Virus record (IMG/VR): IMGVR_UViG_3300003324_000290 | Location: 21,408-43,538 of that record | DNA: 22,131 bases | Strand: one strand, 5' to 3' | DNA from: a virus | Shown: positions 1 through 8,429 of the stretch, piece after piece | Numbering within the stretch: the first letter of the stretch is position 1 | How the letters are laid out: every line of letters begins with the position of its first letter | Made by a program: the position numbers and the translations under genes | The notes under the pieces: model-generated | What the model was told of the DNA's origin: nothing | Database searches by the model: none | The model's input: only the letters and a program-made list of their open reading frames with translations

Positions 1-3000
1 ACAGAGCCGCCACTAATGTATGACCAGTGAGCAGTGTCGCCCCAAGTACCGCTTCCACCAACCCAGTACCTGTCTGGCCCTGTCTTGAAGGCGTCGGTGC
101 TGTGGCTTACAGACGTTGTCTTCTTCTTGTTGGAATCAGTCGTGTGAGAGACTGCGGTTTGCTTTCTCTTCAATGAGTCTGTCGTATGTGAGACTGTAAT
201 TCCACTCTTACGCTTATTCGCGTCAGTAGTGTGGGTCTTGACTGTTTGCTTACGAGTGTTCGCGTCAGTTGTGTGAGACTTAGTAGTCGCCTTTCGTTTA
301 TTTGCGTCGGTTGTATGAGTCTTGGTAAACTGATTGCGAATCAAGGAATCAGTCGTATGAGTAACTGTGACACCGGTCTTCCGCTTATTAGCGTCCGTAG
401 TATGTGTTCTAGTAAGTCCACTCTTCTTTTTATTAGCGTCAGTAGTGTGAGAGACTGTAACACCGCTCTTCTTTTTATTAGCGTCAGTCGTATGAGACTT
501 TGTAAATTGCTTCCTTTTCAAGGCGTCTGTTGTGTGCGTTTTGGTAGTACCGCTAACCTTTTTATTGGCGTCTGTTGTGTGGGTCTTTGTTGATTGCTTC
601 CGCTTTAAGGCGTCAGTCGTGTGGGTTTTAGTGTACTGAGCAGGACCTCCACTACCGATAGTGAAGTCAGCGGCTGATTCAGCGTTACCACCAAACGAGA
701 CGAGTGATGTGTCAGTTGAGCTCTCAGTGTACCACTCTTGCCAGTGGTAAGACGTTCCGTTGGTTCCTCCCGTGTAGCGTCCGTACATCGGGTTGTAGAC
801 CTTAGGAGCCTTGTTTGACCACGTGCTTGATGAGACGGTTGAGTAATTAGGTGTAAGCTCCCAAGTATCCTTATACCAAGTACCTGAGTTTGGACGACCT
901 GATGAAGTATAAAACTTACTGTTAAAGTAAGCACCTGCTCCAGAGCGCCGTGGGTCAGGACTTGTTCCTGGTGTACCAGCTGACATTGAGTTTCCAGCGA
1001 TGTCGTAGATTTGGATTAGGTTCAACGGGTTCGAACCGTCAAATCCTCCGAAGATGATAATCTTACCGTTAGCGGAGTCAAACCCGAATGCTGGTGTTCT
1101 CGTTGGAGTATTAAGCGTTGTTAAAGCTGAAGACCAGGCACCGTTAGTCGTCGAGTAATCGAATGACCGTACTTGAGAGTTAGTTGTTGACAGCGCGGAG
1201 TTTGTCGCACCACCAAGAATGTACATTTTCTTGTTTGCTGAGTCGTTGATATATGCCATACCAGCGACGTCTGTAACTGAACCGCTTGGAGACAACGTTG
1301 TCCAGGCTCCGTCTGCGCTACCAGTAAAGCTTAGTGAGTAAACACCCCCAGTAGTACCAGAGCCGTCACCACCGAGAGCAACGATTAACCTGTCAAGTGT
1401 TGCGTCGTATGCCATTGCAGAAAACCACCTTGGAGAAGGAGGTGTTCCTGTTGGGTTTAACCGAGCAGCCTTGTAGTTACCGTTAGCGTCTCTTGTGAGC
1501 GTCCAGACTTCGTTTCCTTCTTGAGAGACACCAGATAGACCACCGAATAATAGGATTCGCTGTCTTGATGTGTCGTATGCTGCGTTTCGTCCCTCAGTTG
1601 GAGGAAGGCCAAGGTATCCTGTCGCTGCCCAGCGCCAAGTGTTCGATGAAGCACTGTAGACCCAAACGTCGGACGTGTGGCCACCTGCAGCGATTGTAGA
1701 CTCGTCGTATATGTCGTCAAAACCGCCAATCATTAAGAACTCGCTTGCATCAGGGTTGTACAGCATTCCAGGGGCGTCACGTCCCTTCATGTACTCTGAT
1801 TCAAGAAGTCCATAGACTGGCATATTGCTTGAGCTGGCGTCGTCTAGGTCAATCGCAAAGCCGTAGCGCTCAGTTGAGTCATAGGTAAACATACCCTTCT
1901 CAAAGAGGATTCTGCGGTTGGTGTCGATTATAGATGGAGCCAATGCGTGAGGAGGATACTGATGGTTTCCAGTCGACCCATTGTCGTTTGCTCTCTTTTC
2001 AACCCAAGCTCTCGTTCCAGACGAAACGTTCGTGATGTAGCCGATGTCGTTTCGAGTTGAGGCTCCAGTTGTTCCTGTCCAACCTCCAGCGTACCAGAAT
2101 CTGTTGTTGGTTGGGTCGTATCCACCTGAACCCATTTCACGTCCTGCAGGAGCAGTTCCTGTAACTGTAATCTGAGTTAATGTTCCTGAGCCTGAATCGT
2201 CCCACTCGTAGAAGTCTGTTAGGTAAGATGAGCCAGTGTAGCCACCGAAGAAGTAGATTTTACCGTTGTTGCTGTTGTAGTCTGCAACGACACCAGACCG
2301 GACAGAGATTGTACCGCTAGCTACTCGTTGAGTCCAAGTAACTGACGTAGGAGTGTCAACGTCGAACGTACACCTCTGAATGTCTGAGTACCGAGCTGAA
2401 CCCCAACCACCTATGAGGTAGATGTAGTTTTGGTCACTTGCTCCGGTCACAGGAGCAGACGTCATAGCATTCGTGATGTAGCCTCTAGCAAGAGGAGTGT
2501 TCGTCTGTGTGATTGTGGTCCAAGCTTCTGAACCTGGAGTATCTAGTCGAAGCGAGAACATGTCTTGCTTGTCGTTCGGGTCGTTACCTCCCCAGATAAT
2601 CATGTATGAGCGAAGAGCACCACCTGAGGTCAGGTTTCCTTGGACGTATGTTGAACCAGCTAAGTTTCTACCGCTTGGCGGTGTTCCTGATGGACTAAGC
2701 TGTCTCCAAGCTTGTCCAGGACGGTCCATTGGAAGCTCCCAGACGTCGTTGTACCTTGTTGTGCCGTCATAACCACCGAAGTAGATGTACCGGTCGTTGC
2801 TCTTGTCCCAGACCATAGCACCACCACGACGAGAGATAAAGTTTCCTGTCGTGTTGTTTTGGACTCGTGCTCTGTTCGTGATTGTCGCACTGTTTGAGAA
2901 TGACGTTCCAGTTGCCTTGACCTCAAACTTAGGTGTGATTGAATCTGTGGTAATACCAGATGTGTACTCACCTTCTAGGAAGACTGGGTTTGTGATTCCG

Positions 3001-3572
3001 TCCGTTCCTGTGGCTCCACCGACCGCGATTGGAGTCTTAGCGTCACTTGCGTATTGTCCAACTGCCCTAACCGTACCAACGATTGCTGGGAACGGCGTCG
3101 CAATCTCAGTGTTTGACGTTCCTGTCTCAATCGTGACAGATGCAGCACCACCGTGAGAGTTTGTGCTTCTAAACTGATAAAGAACTCTCAAGCGGTCTGT
3201 TGATGAGCCAGCAGACCATGTTAGTGAGCTGAACGTGTACGTTTTAACGCCTGCCGTCAACGTCTGCTCAGAGCTGATTGTCTGAGATTGTTGGACCGTA
3301 CCAGAGCTGTTTACTCTCTGAAGCTGGACAGCAAGCAAAATCGAGCTGCTACCAGTGGTAACATTAACCTTAACTGTAATCGTACCGGAGGTAAACGTGC
3401 TTAGATTCGGTTGGCCTGCGTCAGTCCATGCGTAACTGGTCTCGGTCGCAGAGTTAGCAACTGAGACGTTGATTGAACCAGCGCCCTCTTGCTCATACGG
3501 CAAGGACTTACTAAAGTCAGCACCGCCAGAGAGGTCGCTGTTCGCAGAGCCGAGGTAGTATGACCTAGCCAT
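1..3572 (-). CDS. Kelch-propeller tail/fibre-type protein with HTTD repeat array (partial)
   Basis: An open frame of 1190 complete codons that is still open at the window edge, so the C-terminus is missing. The start is ATG at 3572, with AAGGAG about 11 nt upstream; it overlaps the previous gene's stop by 8 nt (ATGGCTAG). Residues 1 to about 250 are Ser/Thr-rich and look like beta-sandwich. Residues about 255-910 carry some eleven kelch-like units with the GG core followed by an aromatic strand (for example YIYFGGYDG, KIYFFGGYTG, RILLFGGLSG, KIIIFGGFDG), so one or two beta-propellers. Residues 983-1163 are a tandem HTTD repeat array. A YWVGGSGTW-type segment follows at about 1170. Kelch propellers commonly bind glycans or proteins. 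Size and position downstream of the head genes suggest a tail fibre, spike or adhesin; the exact virion role is inferred. Confidence 0.9.
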   Translation of the reverse strand, partial: MARSYYLGSANSDLSGGADFSKSLPYEQEGAGSINVSVANSATETSYAWTDAGQPNLSTFTSGTITVKVNVTTGSSSILLAVQLQRVNSSGTVQQSQTISSEQTLTAGVKTYTFSSLTWSAGSSTDRLRVLYQFRSTNSHGGAASVTIETGTSNTEIATPFPAIVGTVRAVGQYASDAKTPIAVGGATGTDGITNPVFLEGEYTSGITTDSITPKFEVKATGTSFSNSATITNRARVQNNTTGNFISRRGGAMVWDKSNDRYIYFGGYDGTTRYNDVWELPMDRPGQAWRQLSPSGTPPSGRNLAGSTYVQGNLTSGGALRSYMIIWGGNDPNDKQDMFSLRLDTPGSEAWTTITQTNTPLARGYITNAMTSAPVTGASDQNYIYLIGGWGSARYSDIQRCTFDVDTPTSVTWTQRVASGTISVRSGVVADYNSNNGKIYFFGGYTGSSYLTDFYEWDDSGSGTLTQITVTGTAPAGREMGSGGYDPTNNRFWYAGGWTGTTGASTRNDIGYITNVSSGTRAWVEKRANDNGSTGNHQYPPHALAPSIIDTNRRILFEKGMFTYDSTERYGFAIDLDDASSSNMPVYGLLESEYMKGRDAPGMLYNPDASEFLMIGGFDDIYDESTIAAGGHTSDVWVYSASSNTWRWAATGYLGLPPTEGRNAAYDTSRQRILLFGGLSGVSQEGNEVWTLTRDANGNYKAARLNPTGTPPSPRWFSAMAYDATLDRLIVALGGDGSGTTGGVYSLSFTGSADGAWTTLSPSGSVTDVAGMAYINDSANKKMYILGGATNSALSTTNSQVRSFDYSTTNGAWSSALTTLNTPTRTPAFGFDSANGKIIIFGGFDGSNPLNLIQIYDIAGNSMSAGTPGTSPDPRRSGAGAYFNSKFYTSSGRPNSGTWYKDTWELTPNYSTVSSSTWSNKAPKVYNPMYGRYTGGTNGTSYHWQEWYTESSTDTSLVSFGGNAESAADFTIGSGGPAQYTKTHTTDALKRKQSTKTHTTDANKKVSGTTKTHTTDALKRKQFTKSHTTDANKKKSGVTVSHTTDANKKKSGLTRTHTTDANKRKTGVTVTHTTDSLIRNQFTKTHTTDANKRKATTKSHTTDANTRKQTVKTHTTDANKRKSGITVSHTTDSLKRKQTAVSHTTDSNKKKTTSVSHSTDAFKTGPDRYWVGGSGTWGDTAHWSYISGGS
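84..626 (-). repeat. 13-copy HTTD tandem repeat inside the tail protein
   Basis: Thirteen in-frame repeats of a unit close to [ST]HTTD[AS][NL]KRK plus 4 to 5 variable residues. The His codons sit at 621, 579, 534, 492, 447, 402, 357, 315, 273, 231, 186, 144 and 102, so spacing is always 42 or 45 nt (14 or 15 residues). The last copy is degenerate (HSTDAF). The Thr-Thr-Asp core hardly varies, while the tails alternate between QST/QFT and SGVTV/SGLT types. Regular spacing with one conserved His per unit suggests a repetitive beta-structured stem, perhaps trimeric. That structure is inference. Confidence 0.92.
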
Positions 3573-3963
3573 CTTTTCCTAGCTCCTTGTGAGGGTCATG
3601 CCTTGGCTTTCGGACGTTTGGAAGGTTAATGTTCAACCAACCGTCGCCATAATCAGCAAGGGCCGCATCCTGTATCTCAAGAAGCTTATTGAAGTCCATA
3701 AACTTCCCGAACTTGATGTAGCCTTTACCGAGTACTGGTTCTATCTTGTTGAAGTGAGTGCTGAAGTTACCTTGCTTGTCAATTGCGTAGTAATCGTTTC
3801 CATGCTCGATGTGTCGTGTAGGACGTCCTTGTCCGTCACGGTCTTTGAAGTATAAAACAACTACCTGGACGTCATCATCTTGTGTCTTCGTCCAGTCTTC
3901 ATAGGTTTTACCGGTCTCAGCGTGGTCACTGTACCAAACTTTGAAGCCATCGAGCTTGAACAT
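3565..3963 (-). CDS. Hypothetical protein, 132 aa, between head genes and tail protein
   Basis: I do not recognise the family. The protein starts MFKLDGFKVWYSD and is charged and rich in aromatic residues, with alternating strands such as VQVVVLYFKDRDG; the end is basic (NVRKPRHDPHKELGKDG). No signal peptide or membrane segment is visible. The ATG lies 2 nt after the previous stop, and its own stop overlaps the next ATG by 8 nt, so translation is probably coupled to the kelch protein. Its place between two virion-type regions suggests a small structural or assembly role, but nothing in the sequence proves that. Confidence 0.8.
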   Translation of the reverse strand: MFKLDGFKVWYSDHAETGKTYEDWTKTQDDDVQVVVLYFKDRDGQGRPTRHIEHGNDYYAIDKQGNFSTHFNKIEPVLGKGYIKFGKFMDFNKLLEIQDAALADYGDGWLNINLPNVRKPRHDPHKELGKDG

Positions 3964-3965
3964 TC

Positions 3966-4367
3966 TTACTCATCGCTCTCAGGCTCCTCTGTCTCGCTCG
4001 ATGGCGGGTAGAACCACTCACTATTTGGTAGAAAATCACTAACGGTTTCAATGTGGCCGTCTGATTCGAATATACCAAGAATGCCCTTGTAGCCGTCGCC
4101 TATCTTACCAACGATGTGGCAAGCCTCGCTGACGCCTGTTCCAGGGCTCATTTCAATTCGGCGACGCCATACTAGACGCTCACCTTTTTTGAACGTGACA
4201 AGAAGAACGCGCTGGTTCGCTTCCCAATCCCACAGCTCGAAGCTCTTGAGATTATCCAGTGGAAGGTCTTCGTAAGCGTTCTTCTCACCACTGGCTGCGA
4301 CTTGACTGACGCTGCCTCCGTCATTCGTGTACGCAACCCACCTAAACTTAGTTCCTATAGCTGACAT
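3966..4367 (-). CDS. Hypothetical protein, 133 aa, acidic C-terminus
   Basis: An unrecognised soluble protein. It begins MSAIGTKFRWVAYTNDGG, has a central segment with RVLLVTFKKGERLVWRRR, and ends in an acidic tail (ETEEPESDE). No transmembrane segment is seen. The start has a clear site, AAAGGA with 7 nt before ATG. The 41 nt upstream hold a weak TCCCA/TGGGA hairpin at about 4384-4399 but no other gene. It sits in a run of small genes between the Ser/Thr-rich virion protein and the kelch tail protein, so a virion or assembly role is possible. Confidence 0.8.
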   Translation of the reverse strand: MSAIGTKFRWVAYTNDGGSVSQVAASGEKNAYEDLPLDNLKSFELWDWEANQRVLLVTFKKGERLVWRRRIEMSPGTGVSEACHIVGKIGDGYKGILGIFESDGHIETVSDFLPNSEWFYPPSSETEEPESDE

Positions 4368-4408: not shown

Positions 4409-4657
4409 TTAAGATTCTACTTGGACATTGTCCTCTGTAGTCCACCAACCCAAGCCAACTACAGGAAGGCCTTCGCCTTGCTCTCGCTCGTCGGTCTCGC
4501 CGTCAAGTGAGTGGGCGTAGGGTGTGTACTCATCTAGTTCTACACCAACGCGCTTGCCTGGTACGTCCTGGACAACCTTAACGGTTCCCTTGACAGGCTT
4601 GTGCTCTGGTGTATCGACCAAGACTGTAACTCGGTCTCCAACTTTAAGCTTTGCCAT
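4409..4657 (-). CDS. Small SH3/KOW-like beta-barrel protein, 82 aa
   Basis: The first 50 residues read like a small beta-barrel: LKVGDRVTVLV, then a turn, KGTVKVVQDVPGKRVGVELD. That is the hydrophobic-Gly-Asp-x-Val pattern of SH3, KOW or CAP-Gly-type domains. The second half is acidic and contains LGWWTTEDNVQVE. Purine-rich AAGGAAAGGAA lies about 10 nt before ATG. The gene follows the 179-residue virion protein closely. The fold class is suggested by pattern only, and the partner is unknown. It could be a small head or tail accessory protein. Confidence 0.75.
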   Translation of the reverse strand: MAKLKVGDRVTVLVDTPEHKPVKGTVKVVQDVPGKRVGVELDEYTPYAHSLDGETDEREQGEGLPVVGLGWWTTEDNVQVES

Positions 4658-4681: not shown

Positions 4682-5221
4682 TTAGCTTGATGTATCGTCG
4701 TAGCGCCACGTGAAGGTTTCCTGTGCAGTTGCACCGGAAGCTGCTGTGGTACCGACTTCAATTTGGTAAACGACTCGGTCACCGAACTGACCTGTACCAG
4801 TTGTTGAACCAGTAACAGATAGAGGTGAGCCTGAAGTGTAACCGAACACGTCTGATGGTGCTCCAGCTAGGGTTGCGTAGTTACCAGTTGTAAGCTGAGT
4901 ACCAGATGTACCTGCTGTACCAGTAGCCTGAACGTAACCTGAAGCTGTGTTACCCTTACAAGTAACGCCTGTACCGAAGTTGTTCGAACCGTCTGTGTAC
5001 CACTTAACGTTGTCAACTGTACCAGAAGTGATAGCAGTTACGTCAAGGCGAGTAACGACCCAATAGCTGTAGTTTGTACCTGCAGCAGGGACCAAGATAC
5101 TGTTTGAAGTACCAGCGGTTGTGTGAGCGTCTTCAGCGTTAGCGCGTGTGTTGATAGACGTAATATCGGTTGCAGTTGGACCTGCTCCGGTAAGGCGTCT
5201 AATTAGTACTGTTGCTGCCAT
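4682..5221 (-). CDS. Ser/Thr/Gly-rich probable virion protein, 179 aa
   Basis: Thr, Ser, Gly and Ala dominate, and charged residues are few: the look of a beta-rich phage surface or tail component. It begins MAATVLIRRLTGAGPT and includes YSYWVVTRLDVTA, VKWYTDGSNNFGTG, FGDRVVYQIEV and the end ETFTWRYDDTSS. The pattern resembles small virion proteins often annotated as hypothetical in environmental phages; I cannot assign it to decoration, tube or fibre. It is too short and too low in charge for a typical HK97 capsid protein. GGAG lies about 11 nt before ATG. It has its own extended -10 promoter just after the portal stop, which fits strong late expression. Confidence 0.83.
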   Translation of the reverse strand: MAATVLIRRLTGAGPTATDITSINTRANAEDAHTTAGTSNSILVPAAGTNYSYWVVTRLDVTAITSGTVDNVKWYTDGSNNFGTGVTCKGNTASGYVQATGTAGTSGTQLTTGNYATLAGAPSDVFGYTSGSPLSVTGSTTGTGQFGDRVVYQIEVGTTAASGATAQETFTWRYDDTSS

Positions 5222-5275: not shown

Positions 5276-7624
5276 TTAGTTCTTGATGACCAACTTGTAA
5301 ATGCAAGAGCAGTTGACGTGGGCATTGCCCGCGTGGATTTCCTCGAAGTCAACGACTTGTTTCTTGACTCGTGTTCTTCCCTTCTCATCGACGTAGGTCG
5401 CAACTAACTCGTCACCGAGGTCTGCGAAGTTCTCCGTGAATGGAATCGGACCCTGAGCAGCTAAGTCTACGCAAATCGGGCAGGGATTTGAGCTTCTAGT
5501 CTCCCAGGTCTTGTATGCTCTTGGCATTAGGTCATTGTCAACCAAGAACTGTAGGTCAGCTTCGTACTGGCTTCTGGTGAAGGCTCGGTTTGTTTCAGTC
5601 CGAGCAATCGCCTTCGCACGGTTTGTTGAAATTGAACCGTATTCTTGCTTGATTGCATTTATTATTTGCTGTTGGTTAGCACCTTCTAACGCCTTTTTCC
5701 TAGCGAGGACTAAGTCAGCGTCAGTAACCTTACGACCAGTCTTTGCAATCTTATCGACCTCAGCTTGCACGAGACCGTCGTATGTTTGCTTGGTGGCCTG
5801 TCGAAGGTCCTCCAAGATGGTGTTAATATGGCTCTCACCAGCCTTTTGGCTGATTTGCTTGATGTACGCCTTAACTTGTGGCGTCATCTTGAACTCAGCT
5901 GGGTACCCGAACTCTGCAGTTCGTTTACTTGCAGTCTGGCGAGCAAAGAGAGGAATGATAACTGTGTAGAAGGCAGCCAGCGCTAGGATTAGCTCCTTCT
6001 CACTTTCACGCTTGTCGGTCTTGTTGATGATGTCTGATTCATCGTCAAAAGCGTTCTTAGTTACCTTGTTAATGACGGAATTGGTAACGCGACCCTCGAT
6101 GTTGACGATTGCGTTCTGGAGAGCAGCCTGTTGGTTGTTCAAGATACCTTTTGTCTCGGTCTCGAACTGCTGGATGATAGACTCGAAGTCATGGTTGTGG
6201 TCATGGCTCTCCTCTGTCTTATCAGCTTTCTTAGGAGGCTTCTTCTCCTTCTTACCTTTACCGTCTTCCGCTGGCGGAGCTACCTGAGGGTTCTTTGGGT
6301 CCTGTCCAGCCTTGAGCATTGCTGCCTCAATAATTGGATTAGGCCGAGGTTCCTCAGTGGGTTCACCAAGCTCTTCTAGTGTAATCTCACCTTGAGAATA
6401 CTTAGCAGCAAGGTCACGCTTGTAACCCTGTGCAACTAGTTTGTCATAGAGCTTGTAACTCTCGTCTCGGATTTCAATGTCCTTAAGTTCGGCTTCCCTG
6501 TCCGTGCCGAGCGGGTTGTCGATGTACAGGCGGTATCTGTCCTTCAAGTAGGCTTCATGATAATACTTCTTGTAGTCTTGATTCAATGCTGAAAGGATAA
6601 GCTTGAGTTGAGGCATGACATGGTTCTCAATGAACAAGTCCTTTTGAACCTTCGCAGTCTCTCTAGTCGTACCGCTTTCCTCGATTGCCATCATTGTCTT
6701 ACCGACGCCAGAAACAGCAAACAGTTCAGAACGGTTAATCTCGTTAATGTCCTTCAGGCCAGCCTTGTCCATGTCAATCTGCATGGAATCCCACGTGATG
6801 GCTCCGGCACCATTACCGAATAGCGGCAAACCTTTTTCTTGGTTAGTTACACGACTGACGAAGTTCTGGAACTGTTGAGGGTCTAGAAGGACGTCTGTCG
6901 ATATGATACCTGGAGCCGCCATGTTGTTCTTAAGCGAGTGTCGGGTGTAGTCTCCACCTTGCTTAATGGTGAATTGTGCAGTCTTTGCAGCGTCTGTCAT
7001 CGCAAACGGGTCGTCCTCACTGAACGGGTTGAGCTTGCGAATCTCAATAATCATCTGTGGAGGTATCTCACGAATCAGTCCCATGCGAGACTCGACGTAA
7101 CCGCCAATCTCAAGAGTGTCCTTGTTTCGGATTCGTCGGACGTCATACGGGTTGAGTAGCTTGAACTCTTGGATGTTCCCGACTCTCGTAGACCCGTCAG
7201 TGTTCGCACCGACGTTTCTAACTGCAAGCAAGTAATAAACACCTTCCAAGTCTAGGTAGGTTGAAATGTCATACCAAAAAGAGTCGTTGTCAAAGCTTAA
7301 CGACTCGTCGATGATTGTCAGGTATGGGTGGACAATCTCTTCACCCTTTGATTTTGCAGCAAGAATGGCTTGCTTCGTAGCGTCAGTCTTCAAGTTCGAT
7401 TCAGCAAGCTGTGCAACCTTGTTGGCTCGGTTGTTGATTGCAGCGTAAGGATAGCCGGAGTACATCTCCTTGTCGTCCATGACGACCTTTGACCAGTCCT
7501 GGACAAGAGCTTTTCTATCACCGTACTTCAAAAATTGGCGACCAAGCTTGATGTCGTCGCCAACGGCATTCTCTGCCTTTGTGAATCCTTCTATTCCTGC
7601 TCTTACTCTATCTGTGAATTTCAT
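5276..7624 (-). CDS. Portal protein fused to MuF head-morphogenesis domain
   Basis: At 782 residues this is much longer than an ordinary portal (about 400-550). Residues 1 to about 430 fit a phage portal, the dodecameric ring at the packaging vertex; the stretch around LFAVSGVGKTMMAIEESG, then a long helix ending near YKKYY, is typical. A Pro/Lys/Glu linker with SHDHNHD lies at about 430-490. A mainly helical region follows, and residues about 625-782 look like a MuF/SPP1 gp7 minor head domain: NRAKAIARTETNRAF around 669-683, then CPIC at 715-718, H764, H769, C772 and C774, a plausible zinc site. The ATG at 7624 has only a weak ribosome site. The two functions are usually separate genes, so the fusion is notable. 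Confidence 0.93.
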   Translation of the reverse strand: MKFTDRVRAGIEGFTKAENAVGDDIKLGRQFLKYGDRKALVQDWSKVVMDDKEMYSGYPYAAINNRANKVAQLAESNLKTDATKQAILAAKSKGEEIVHPYLTIIDESLSFDNDSFWYDISTYLDLEGVYYLLAVRNVGANTDGSTRVGNIQEFKLLNPYDVRRIRNKDTLEIGGYVESRMGLIREIPPQMIIEIRKLNPFSEDDPFAMTDAAKTAQFTIKQGGDYTRHSLKNNMAAPGIISTDVLLDPQQFQNFVSRVTNQEKGLPLFGNGAGAITWDSMQIDMDKAGLKDINEINRSELFAVSGVGKTMMAIEESGTTRETAKVQKDLFIENHVMPQLKLILSALNQDYKKYYHEAYLKDRYRLYIDNPLGTDREAELKDIEIRDESYKLYDKLVAQGYKRDLAAKYSQGEITLEELGEPTEEPRPNPIIEAAMLKAGQDPKNPQVAPPAEDGKGKKEKKPPKKADKTEESHDHNHDFESIIQQFETETKGILNNQQAALQNAIVNIEGRVTNSVINKVTKNAFDDESDIINKTDKRESEKELILALAAFYTVIIPLFARQTASKRTAEFGYPAEFKMTPQVKAYIKQISQKAGESHINTILEDLRQATKQTYDGLVQAEVDKIAKTGRKVTDADLVLARKKALEGANQQQIINAIKQEYGSISTNRAKAIARTETNRAFTRSQYEADLQFLVDNDLMPRAYKTWETRSSNPCPICVDLAAQGPIPFTENFADLGDELVATYVDEKGRTRVKKQVVDFEEIHAGNAHVNCSCIYKLVIKN

Positions 7625-7851: not shown

Positions 7852-7860
7852 ATTATAACA
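7852..7860 (-). promoter_or_regulatory. Extended -10 promoter for the DUF1508 gene
   Basis: The minus strand reads TGTTATAAT, a perfect extended -10, overlapping the stop of the glutaredoxin gene and 18 nt before the DUF1508 ATG. A weak TTGGTT is 16 nt upstream. No other gene starts nearby. Confidence 0.6.
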
Positions 7861-8092
7861 TTTGTTGCTGTCTAACCAAATCAGAAAGTGCGCCTACGTT
7901 CCACCCTACGATAAACTGCTCACCATCCGACGTGACTGGTACGCTCATCATGCCAGTTTTCTCGAATAACATCTGTCTCGTCGCTTGGTCGTCGTCGATG
8001 TAGACCTTCTCATACTGGACCTGTTTTAGTTGAAGAAACTTCTCGACTTGCTTGCACCAGACACAAGTGCGAGTTGCGAATACCTTGACCAC
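7853..8092 (-). CDS. Glutaredoxin-like thioltransferase
   Basis: A 79-residue protein of the thioredoxin fold. The redox motif CVWC is at residues 10-13 after the first strand (VKVFATRTC). The cis-proline segment MSVPVT and a Gly-rich end (IVGWNVGALSDLV) match glutaredoxin, NrdH or mycoredoxin proteins. I chose the GTG at 8092 because AAGGAGG lies about 6 nt upstream; a longer reading from a TTG at 8119 has no such site. Such proteins reduce ribonucleotide reductase or mixed disulphides. No reductase gene is in the window, so the partner may be host-encoded. Together with the peroxiredoxin near 21405 it suggests that the phage carries redox functions. Confidence 0.9.
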   Translation of the reverse strand: MVKVFATRTCVWCKQVEKFLQLKQVQYEKVYIDDDQATRQMLFEKTGMMSVPVTSDGEQFIVGWNVGALSDLVRQQQML

Positions 8093-8108
8093 CTGACCCT
8101 CCTTTTGT

Positions 8109-8429
8109 TTAGTTACCAAACACTGACTTGGGAGCGGTCTGTGGGTCCCAAATCAAGACCTTGTTGCGGTTTTTATCAAAGTTGAACGACCGATAGCTTG
8201 TCGGGTTCTCTAAACTCATTCTACCACAATTCATACAGCGAAGGTCTCTTGGTCCACTCGTCAAGCTAGTCTTTGTCTCTGGGTGCTCGTCCTCGTATTG
8301 TGTATACCAACCACAACTACGACATGTTTTGATAAGCGTCAACCAGTGCGGGTCATTTTTCCAATCCACCTCCATGTGCTCATACGCTTGGCGCGTCAAC
8401 TCGTCAGGAACACCATTCTTCCAACCCAT
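8109..8429 (-). CDS. Zinc-ribbon-like hypothetical protein, 106 aa
   Basis: Two CxxC knuckles, C36-C39 (CRSCGWY) and C65-C68 (CMNCGR), are 26 residues apart, the layout of a zinc ribbon. The N-terminal third is helical and acidic (DELTRQAYEHMEVDW), and the C-terminal third is rich in Asn and Lys (SFNFDKNRNKVLIWD). The family is not recognised. Zinc ribbons of this type bind nucleic acid or act as small structural units, and nothing here decides between the two. It follows the small membrane protein gene after a 5 nt gap and precedes glutaredoxin, apparently in the same transcript. Confidence 0.8.
   Translation of the reverse strand: MGWKNGVPDELTRQAYEHMEVDWKNDPHWLTLIKTCRSCGWYTQYEDEHPETKTSLTSGPRDLRCMNCGRMSLENPTSYRSFNFDKNRNKVLIWDPQTAPKSVFGN

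Follow-up and report, generated by a model that had tools for sequence, protein, structure and literature searches.

A conserved, unnamed HTTD repeat in viruses of uncultivated hosts is most likely the stalk of a virion fiber

What does a virus build from a protein in which a His-Thr-Thr-Asp motif returns every 14 or 15 residues? Such a protein begins in the window analyzed here, a stretch of 22,131 nucleotides (G000:C1:21408-43538) within a virus record of 43,538 bases, where 13 HTTD repeats in strict register had originally been predicted in a tail protein. The gene is cut by the window edge, directly left of which lies a 34-N scaffold gap, and the reading frame runs across this gap (11 unknown residues) to give a protein of 2335 aa. 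Because the stated length of such a gap may be nominal, continuity of the frame over it is likely rather than certain. The protein and its parts are the following (window coordinates unless a locus is named):

L011:5973-12980, minus strand: full repeat protein, 2335 aa
3..3572, minus strand: N-terminal 1190 residues of the repeat protein, continuing left past the 34-N gap
801..2798, minus strand: N-terminal kelch beta-propeller repeats of the repeat protein (residues 259-924, Pfam)
63..623, minus strand: first HTTD array, 13 units of 14/15 residues, the last motif being HSTD and its tail degenerate

The window part of the gene encodes 13 units with the motif H[TS]TD (12 HTTD and a final HSTD), their His residues lying at protein positions 984-1157 with gaps of 14, 15, 14, 15, 15, 15, 14, 14, 14, 15, 14, and 14 residues. 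Residue shuffling (20,000 trials) gave at most 3 motifs per shuffle, and random placement of the motifs (200,000 draws) reproduced an all-14/15 spacing 0 times; a chance origin of the array is excluded, and the predicted strict register is borne out. The frame [ST]HTTD[AS], also part of the original prediction, holds in the window units apart from the HSTD of the last one, with S or T before every H and A or S after every D, and the basic patch that had been ascribed to each unit is present in 12 of the 13, the last (AFKT) being barely basic. The count of 13 is correct for the window and understates the protein, which has 68 units: the 13 in the window and 55 in a second array to the window's left, separated from the first by a break of 360 residues. 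Across both arrays, the gaps comprise 51 of 14 residues, 14 of 15, and one of 17.

The arrays alternate with other domains. Residues 259-924 match Pfam PF24681 (E 1.2e-48) as well as Kelch_1/3/4/6, a membership confined to the N-terminal half of the protein, and the domain order is kelch, array 1, a middle region of ~340 residues, array 2, and a short C-terminal tail. The middle region gave no convincing match in Pfam, NCBIfam, or PHROGs. In the relatives L014, L034, and L045, arrays likewise alternate with non-repeat domains, some of which look LamG-like by eye. A tail-tip protein with a Laminin_G_3 domain (L012:3961-8226) starts with the motif RYWVGGSG, which also follows HTTD array 1.

The repeat is not a peculiarity of this virus. 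In IMG/VR, a DNA pattern of 2 HTTD motifs 14 residues apart matched 36 stretches on 29 contigs, and convincing arrays recur in 28 other IMG/VR contigs, the L036 match looking spurious as an array. When 84,980 genomes of bacteria and archaea were scanned by pattern, 22 loci came up, only 2 of which are credible: L072 (bacterium ADurb.Bin212), with 23 units adjoining capsid, protease, and head genes, and L071 (a Candidatus Methanoperedens contig), with 2-3 units adjoining phage-like genes. Since both lie beside phage-like genes, a cellular origin of the repeat was rejected. The mostly small genomes listed for its phylum tentatively suggest that L072 belongs to the Patescibacteria. Among the other loci of the scan, L053 is a 7-residue repeat and was rejected as an HTTD array, and the remainder look like chance. 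A profile search of the fetched loci matched 69 frames and none among the reversed proteins. Two weak plasmid matches to the L072 protein (27-30% identity) were judged composition-driven. In cultured phages, tblastn found no match to the arrays, which its low-complexity filter may hide, or to p179, a companion protein described below that is not low-complexity.

Across viruses, 951 distinct units yield the consensus x-T-[VL]-[TS]-H-T-T-D-[AS]-[LN]-[LK]-[RK]-x-x, in which H, T at +2 from the His, and D at +3 are kept, partly because the search pattern imposes them. Of 37 units that this pattern missed, 30 have the D and 25 the T at +2. Pro and Gly together stay below 3% at positions -3 to +7 and reach 5-11% at +8, +9, and -4, the positions at which, by inspection, changes in unit length are located. 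In the virus of the window (G000), Asn occupies +5 in 14/14 of the 15-residue units versus 18/51 of the 14-residue units (p=7.7e-6), and Asn at +5 also marks the 15-residue units of relative 4463 (p=1.4e-10); 12001 shows a weaker link, and 44745 and 20201 show none. Thus, loop length is tied to sequence in 2 viruses, a link that shared descent of unit subtypes could partly explain.

Comparisons between units show saturation at silent sites (pS about 0.81) and a pN of 0.09 for HTTDA, the H, T, and D values being partly imposed by the search pattern. For the H, T, T, and D residues, synonymous codons are used as in the genome as a whole (entropy at T+2, 1.91 vs 1.95 bits), and neighboring units are no more similar to each other than random pairs. 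Saturated silent sites combined with a near-invariant HTTDA point to old units maintained by purifying selection. Recent tandem duplication of DNA was rejected on the same saturation, with TRF detecting fragments only.

Consistent with the original view that no named domain covers the repeat, profile searches found no named Pfam or NCBIfam family along the array, the array sequence had no match in the PDB, and the literature on an HTTD repeat yielded nothing relevant. The only matching families are unnamed PHROGs with no function or structure attached, neither of which spans the HTTD family: phrog_30105 matches the arrays of L038 (5.5e-15), L072, L044, and L018, and phrog_7303 weakly matches array 2 of G000 (1.9e-6). 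A match to CRA_rpt (22.8 bits, cut-off 21.4) was judged spurious, with no stretch significant alone, as were scattered matches of L072 to coiled-coil families in Pfam; other scattered Pfam matches, in 1-2 of 47 arrays, are chance-like.

We also compared the array with known fibrous folds. The triple beta-spiral of adenovirus fiber and reovirus sigma1 has tandem units of ~15 residues that form a shaft bearing globular heads (PMC3150272, PMC8869412). The HTTD array resembles it in having many tandem units of about 15 residues, but differs in its usual unit of 14 and its near-invariant His, Thr, and Asp. In the published consensus (PMC3150272), positions c, e, g, k, and m are hydrophobic and turn position j is Pro or Gly. 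Of the 14 registers possible for the array, the best has a mean hydrophobic fraction of 0.36 at those five positions, and the best registers have Pro or Gly at j in 0-5% of units, which does not fit this fold. A heptad coiled coil (14 = 2 x 7), which calls for hydrophobic a and d positions in both heptads, fails as well, every register having a core position that is <=0.03 hydrophobic. That neither of these known trimeric registers fits counts against the stalk reading given below. The triple-stranded beta-helix of T4 gp5, built on an 8-residue VxGxxxxx repeat (PMC4576200), shares with the array a regular repeat in a phage protein, gp5 being rod-like; however, HTTD units have 14-17 residues, no VxG, and near-zero Gly in the core.

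Our favored reading, held with moderate confidence, is that the HTTD units are the stalk or spacer repeat of a large virion surface fiber (adhesin) of tailed viruses of uncultivated hosts, a class to which the protein is putatively assigned on its architecture and gene position. In each unit, ~11 residues (-3 to +7 relative to the His) would make up a structured core, probably one short beta-strand with HTTD at its center, and the surface loop after it would take up the differences in unit length (14 to 17 residues). Repetition of the unit would generate a long, presumably oligomeric rod that carries or separates globular domains, e.g., the kelch propeller. The elongated stem of the original prediction is thus the part of its functional proposal that best describes the array, and the HTTD repeat is a conserved, unnamed repeat of fiber type, most likely a stalk.

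The alternative that fares best sees the array as a multivalent chain, intrinsically disordered and evenly spaced, in which HTTD units act as binding motifs on a flexible tether and the spacing arises from gain and loss of blocks. An AlphaFold2 model of the array monomer, built from 47 aligned arrays, is of low confidence throughout (mean pLDDT 45.9, pTM 0.31, 0 residues >70), as would be expected of such a chain, and disorder of the array is possible on this model; in a monomer model, however, low pLDDT alone cannot tell an obligate oligomer from disorder. The same low-confidence model places one weak strand per unit on 7 consecutive HTTD motifs. Disorder would also agree with the paucity of hydrophobic residues in units of the G000 lineage and with a net charge per unit that drifts freely among relatives (means of -1.81 to +2.36). 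Against it, positions -2, +5, and +6 remain hydrophobic at 53-70% in the wider family, Pro and Gly are excluded from the 11-residue core, and the spacing stays near 14 despite divergence to saturation of silent sites. We therefore regard a disordered chain as unlikely.

The drift in charge also bears on the proposal that the basic patches form a general track for binding polyanions such as teichoic acid or nucleic acid. G000 and 4 relatives carry about +1.5 to +2 net charge per unit, and the 2 G000 arrays combined have 181 K+R vs 70 D+E, as such a track would require. However, units with the same HTTD core are neutral or acidic in 28315 (net -1.35), 5825 (-1.5), and 13120 (-1.8), so that charge is a trait of lineages. 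A strongly basic unit tail characterizes the G000-like group together with a few other members. With net charge ranging from -1.8 to +2.4 among relatives, the basic patch loses its standing as a general feature, and a general polyanion-binding role is improbable. The weakest alternative, a trimeric stem with metal-binding rows of His, is very improbable: although HxH metal sites are known in phage fiber tips, all 68 units of the G000 protein have one His each, and an Asp 3 residues further could join in coordination, His is replaced in 25 of the 37 pattern-missed units, mostly by Gln, Tyr, Phe, or Asn, of which Phe cannot bind metal, Asp gives way to Ser in about 21% of units in the G000-like group, and Thr at +2 is conserved about as well as His, a pattern that fits side-chain packing no less well. 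Neither the metal nor the teichoic-acid idea is supported by the family-wide comparison; for the G000 virus alone, both remain candidates.

Further indications for a fiber stalk come from the genes that accompany the array gene:

3565..3963, minus strand: p132, directly upstream of the array gene, common to the L013 virus
3966..4367, minus strand: p133, companion present in about 12 array contigs, its gene situated between those of p179 and the array protein
4409..4657, minus strand: p82, small companion, kept in several relatives
4682..5221, minus strand: p179, 179 residues, conserved companion
5276..7624, minus strand: portal protein fused to a MuF-like domain (Pfam PF04860, E 7.2e-15; phrog_2662 portal, E 1.1e-26)

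The gene order in G000 is terminase, portal-MuF, p179, p82, p133, p132, array protein, capsid-like protein, connector, major tail protein, tape measure, Dit, and tail tip. The capsid-like assignment draws on gene place, a protease-like start, and resemblance to the protein that L013 encodes at this position, with no match in Pfam or PHROGs; in L072, the corresponding place holds clear Peptidase_S78 and Phage_capsid domains. The position of the portal-MuF gene places the array gene beside the head module, and the label "tail protein" of the original prediction is accordingly unproven, the gene lying between the portal and capsid-like genes, outside the tail module. A fiber encoded in the head region recalls virion head fibers such as that of phi29, a helix-turn-helix, or Orsay CP-delta, a beta-bracelet pentamer (PMC7565637), but the HTTD array has no sequence match to solved structures.

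The companion p179 (52-87% identity among relatives) has no confident match in Pfam, PHROGs, the PDB, or INPHARED. It is present in 28 of 30 array-bearing records that were picked by the repeat alone, without reference to p179, and in 0 reversed-sequence controls; the count includes related viruses and near-duplicates (G019/G029/G030 and G007/G027), so that independent cases are fewer. In most cases its gene sits close to that of the array, either within the head module or following baseplate genes. Conversely, a strict array is found within the fetched flank of 14 of 35 p179 loci, the strict pattern missing related HTID or HG-type repeats in L101 and L088. This fraction and the 2 array records without p179 (G009 and G010) indicate that p179 and the array are not obligate partners. 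In G000 and L072, the cassette is flanked by portal and protease-capsid genes, and in L104 it comes after a Baseplate_J gene; its presence in both head and tail-fiber slots argues for a fiber. The fiber would be part of a transferable cassette (p179, p133, and the array protein), within which p179 probably attaches or assembles the fiber on the virion.

Several other loci touch on this cassette. p179 marks it in at least 35 viral contigs, and remote p179 relatives occur in archaeal genome bins (L110-L112), adjoining fiber-like genes. In L071, from an archaeal bin, p179, p133, and the HTTD protein of 2-3 units adjoin 2 copies of a fiber-like protein; this locus is possibly an archaeal virus or a binning error. 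Units of similar length but of the HTID, HG, and SDSLxLSDSV types lie in or near the p179-linked slot (L101:12028-13866, L088:13108-15630, and L094:4880-6061), which suggests a wider superfamily of fiber repeats. Elsewhere in the window, a block of glycosyltransferase-like genes with an FkbM methyltransferase and a Fic-domain gene (14750-19210) gives this 43-kb phage record a considerable accessory load. A VWA-domain protein with DUF7788 and DUF2828 matches (19607-21067) is TROVE-like in outline, and peroxiredoxin (AhpC-TSA) and glutaredoxin-like genes lie at 21405-22058 and 7853-8119, respectively.

Taken as a whole, it is possible, and we put it forward tentatively, that the units form a fibrous fold not seen before, each 14-residue unit contributing one near-invariant rung of His-Thr-Thr-Asp, and that p179 assembles them on virions as part of a portable fiber cassette common to phages of uncultivated bacteria, one of them in a small-genome, Patescibacteria-like bin, and to a virus-like contig of a Methanoperedens bin. 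Recurring in ~30 further sequences, viral or prophage-like, from uncultured hosts and unnamed in the libraries tried, the HTTD repeat looks like a widespread, undescribed building block of phage fibers. Fibers decide which host cells a phage infects, and rod repeats are useful as building material. As a candidate for a new fibrous fold, the array is defined and open to testing, and the repeat family, together with its conserved companion gene as a marker, offers a handle on fibers in viral dark matter.
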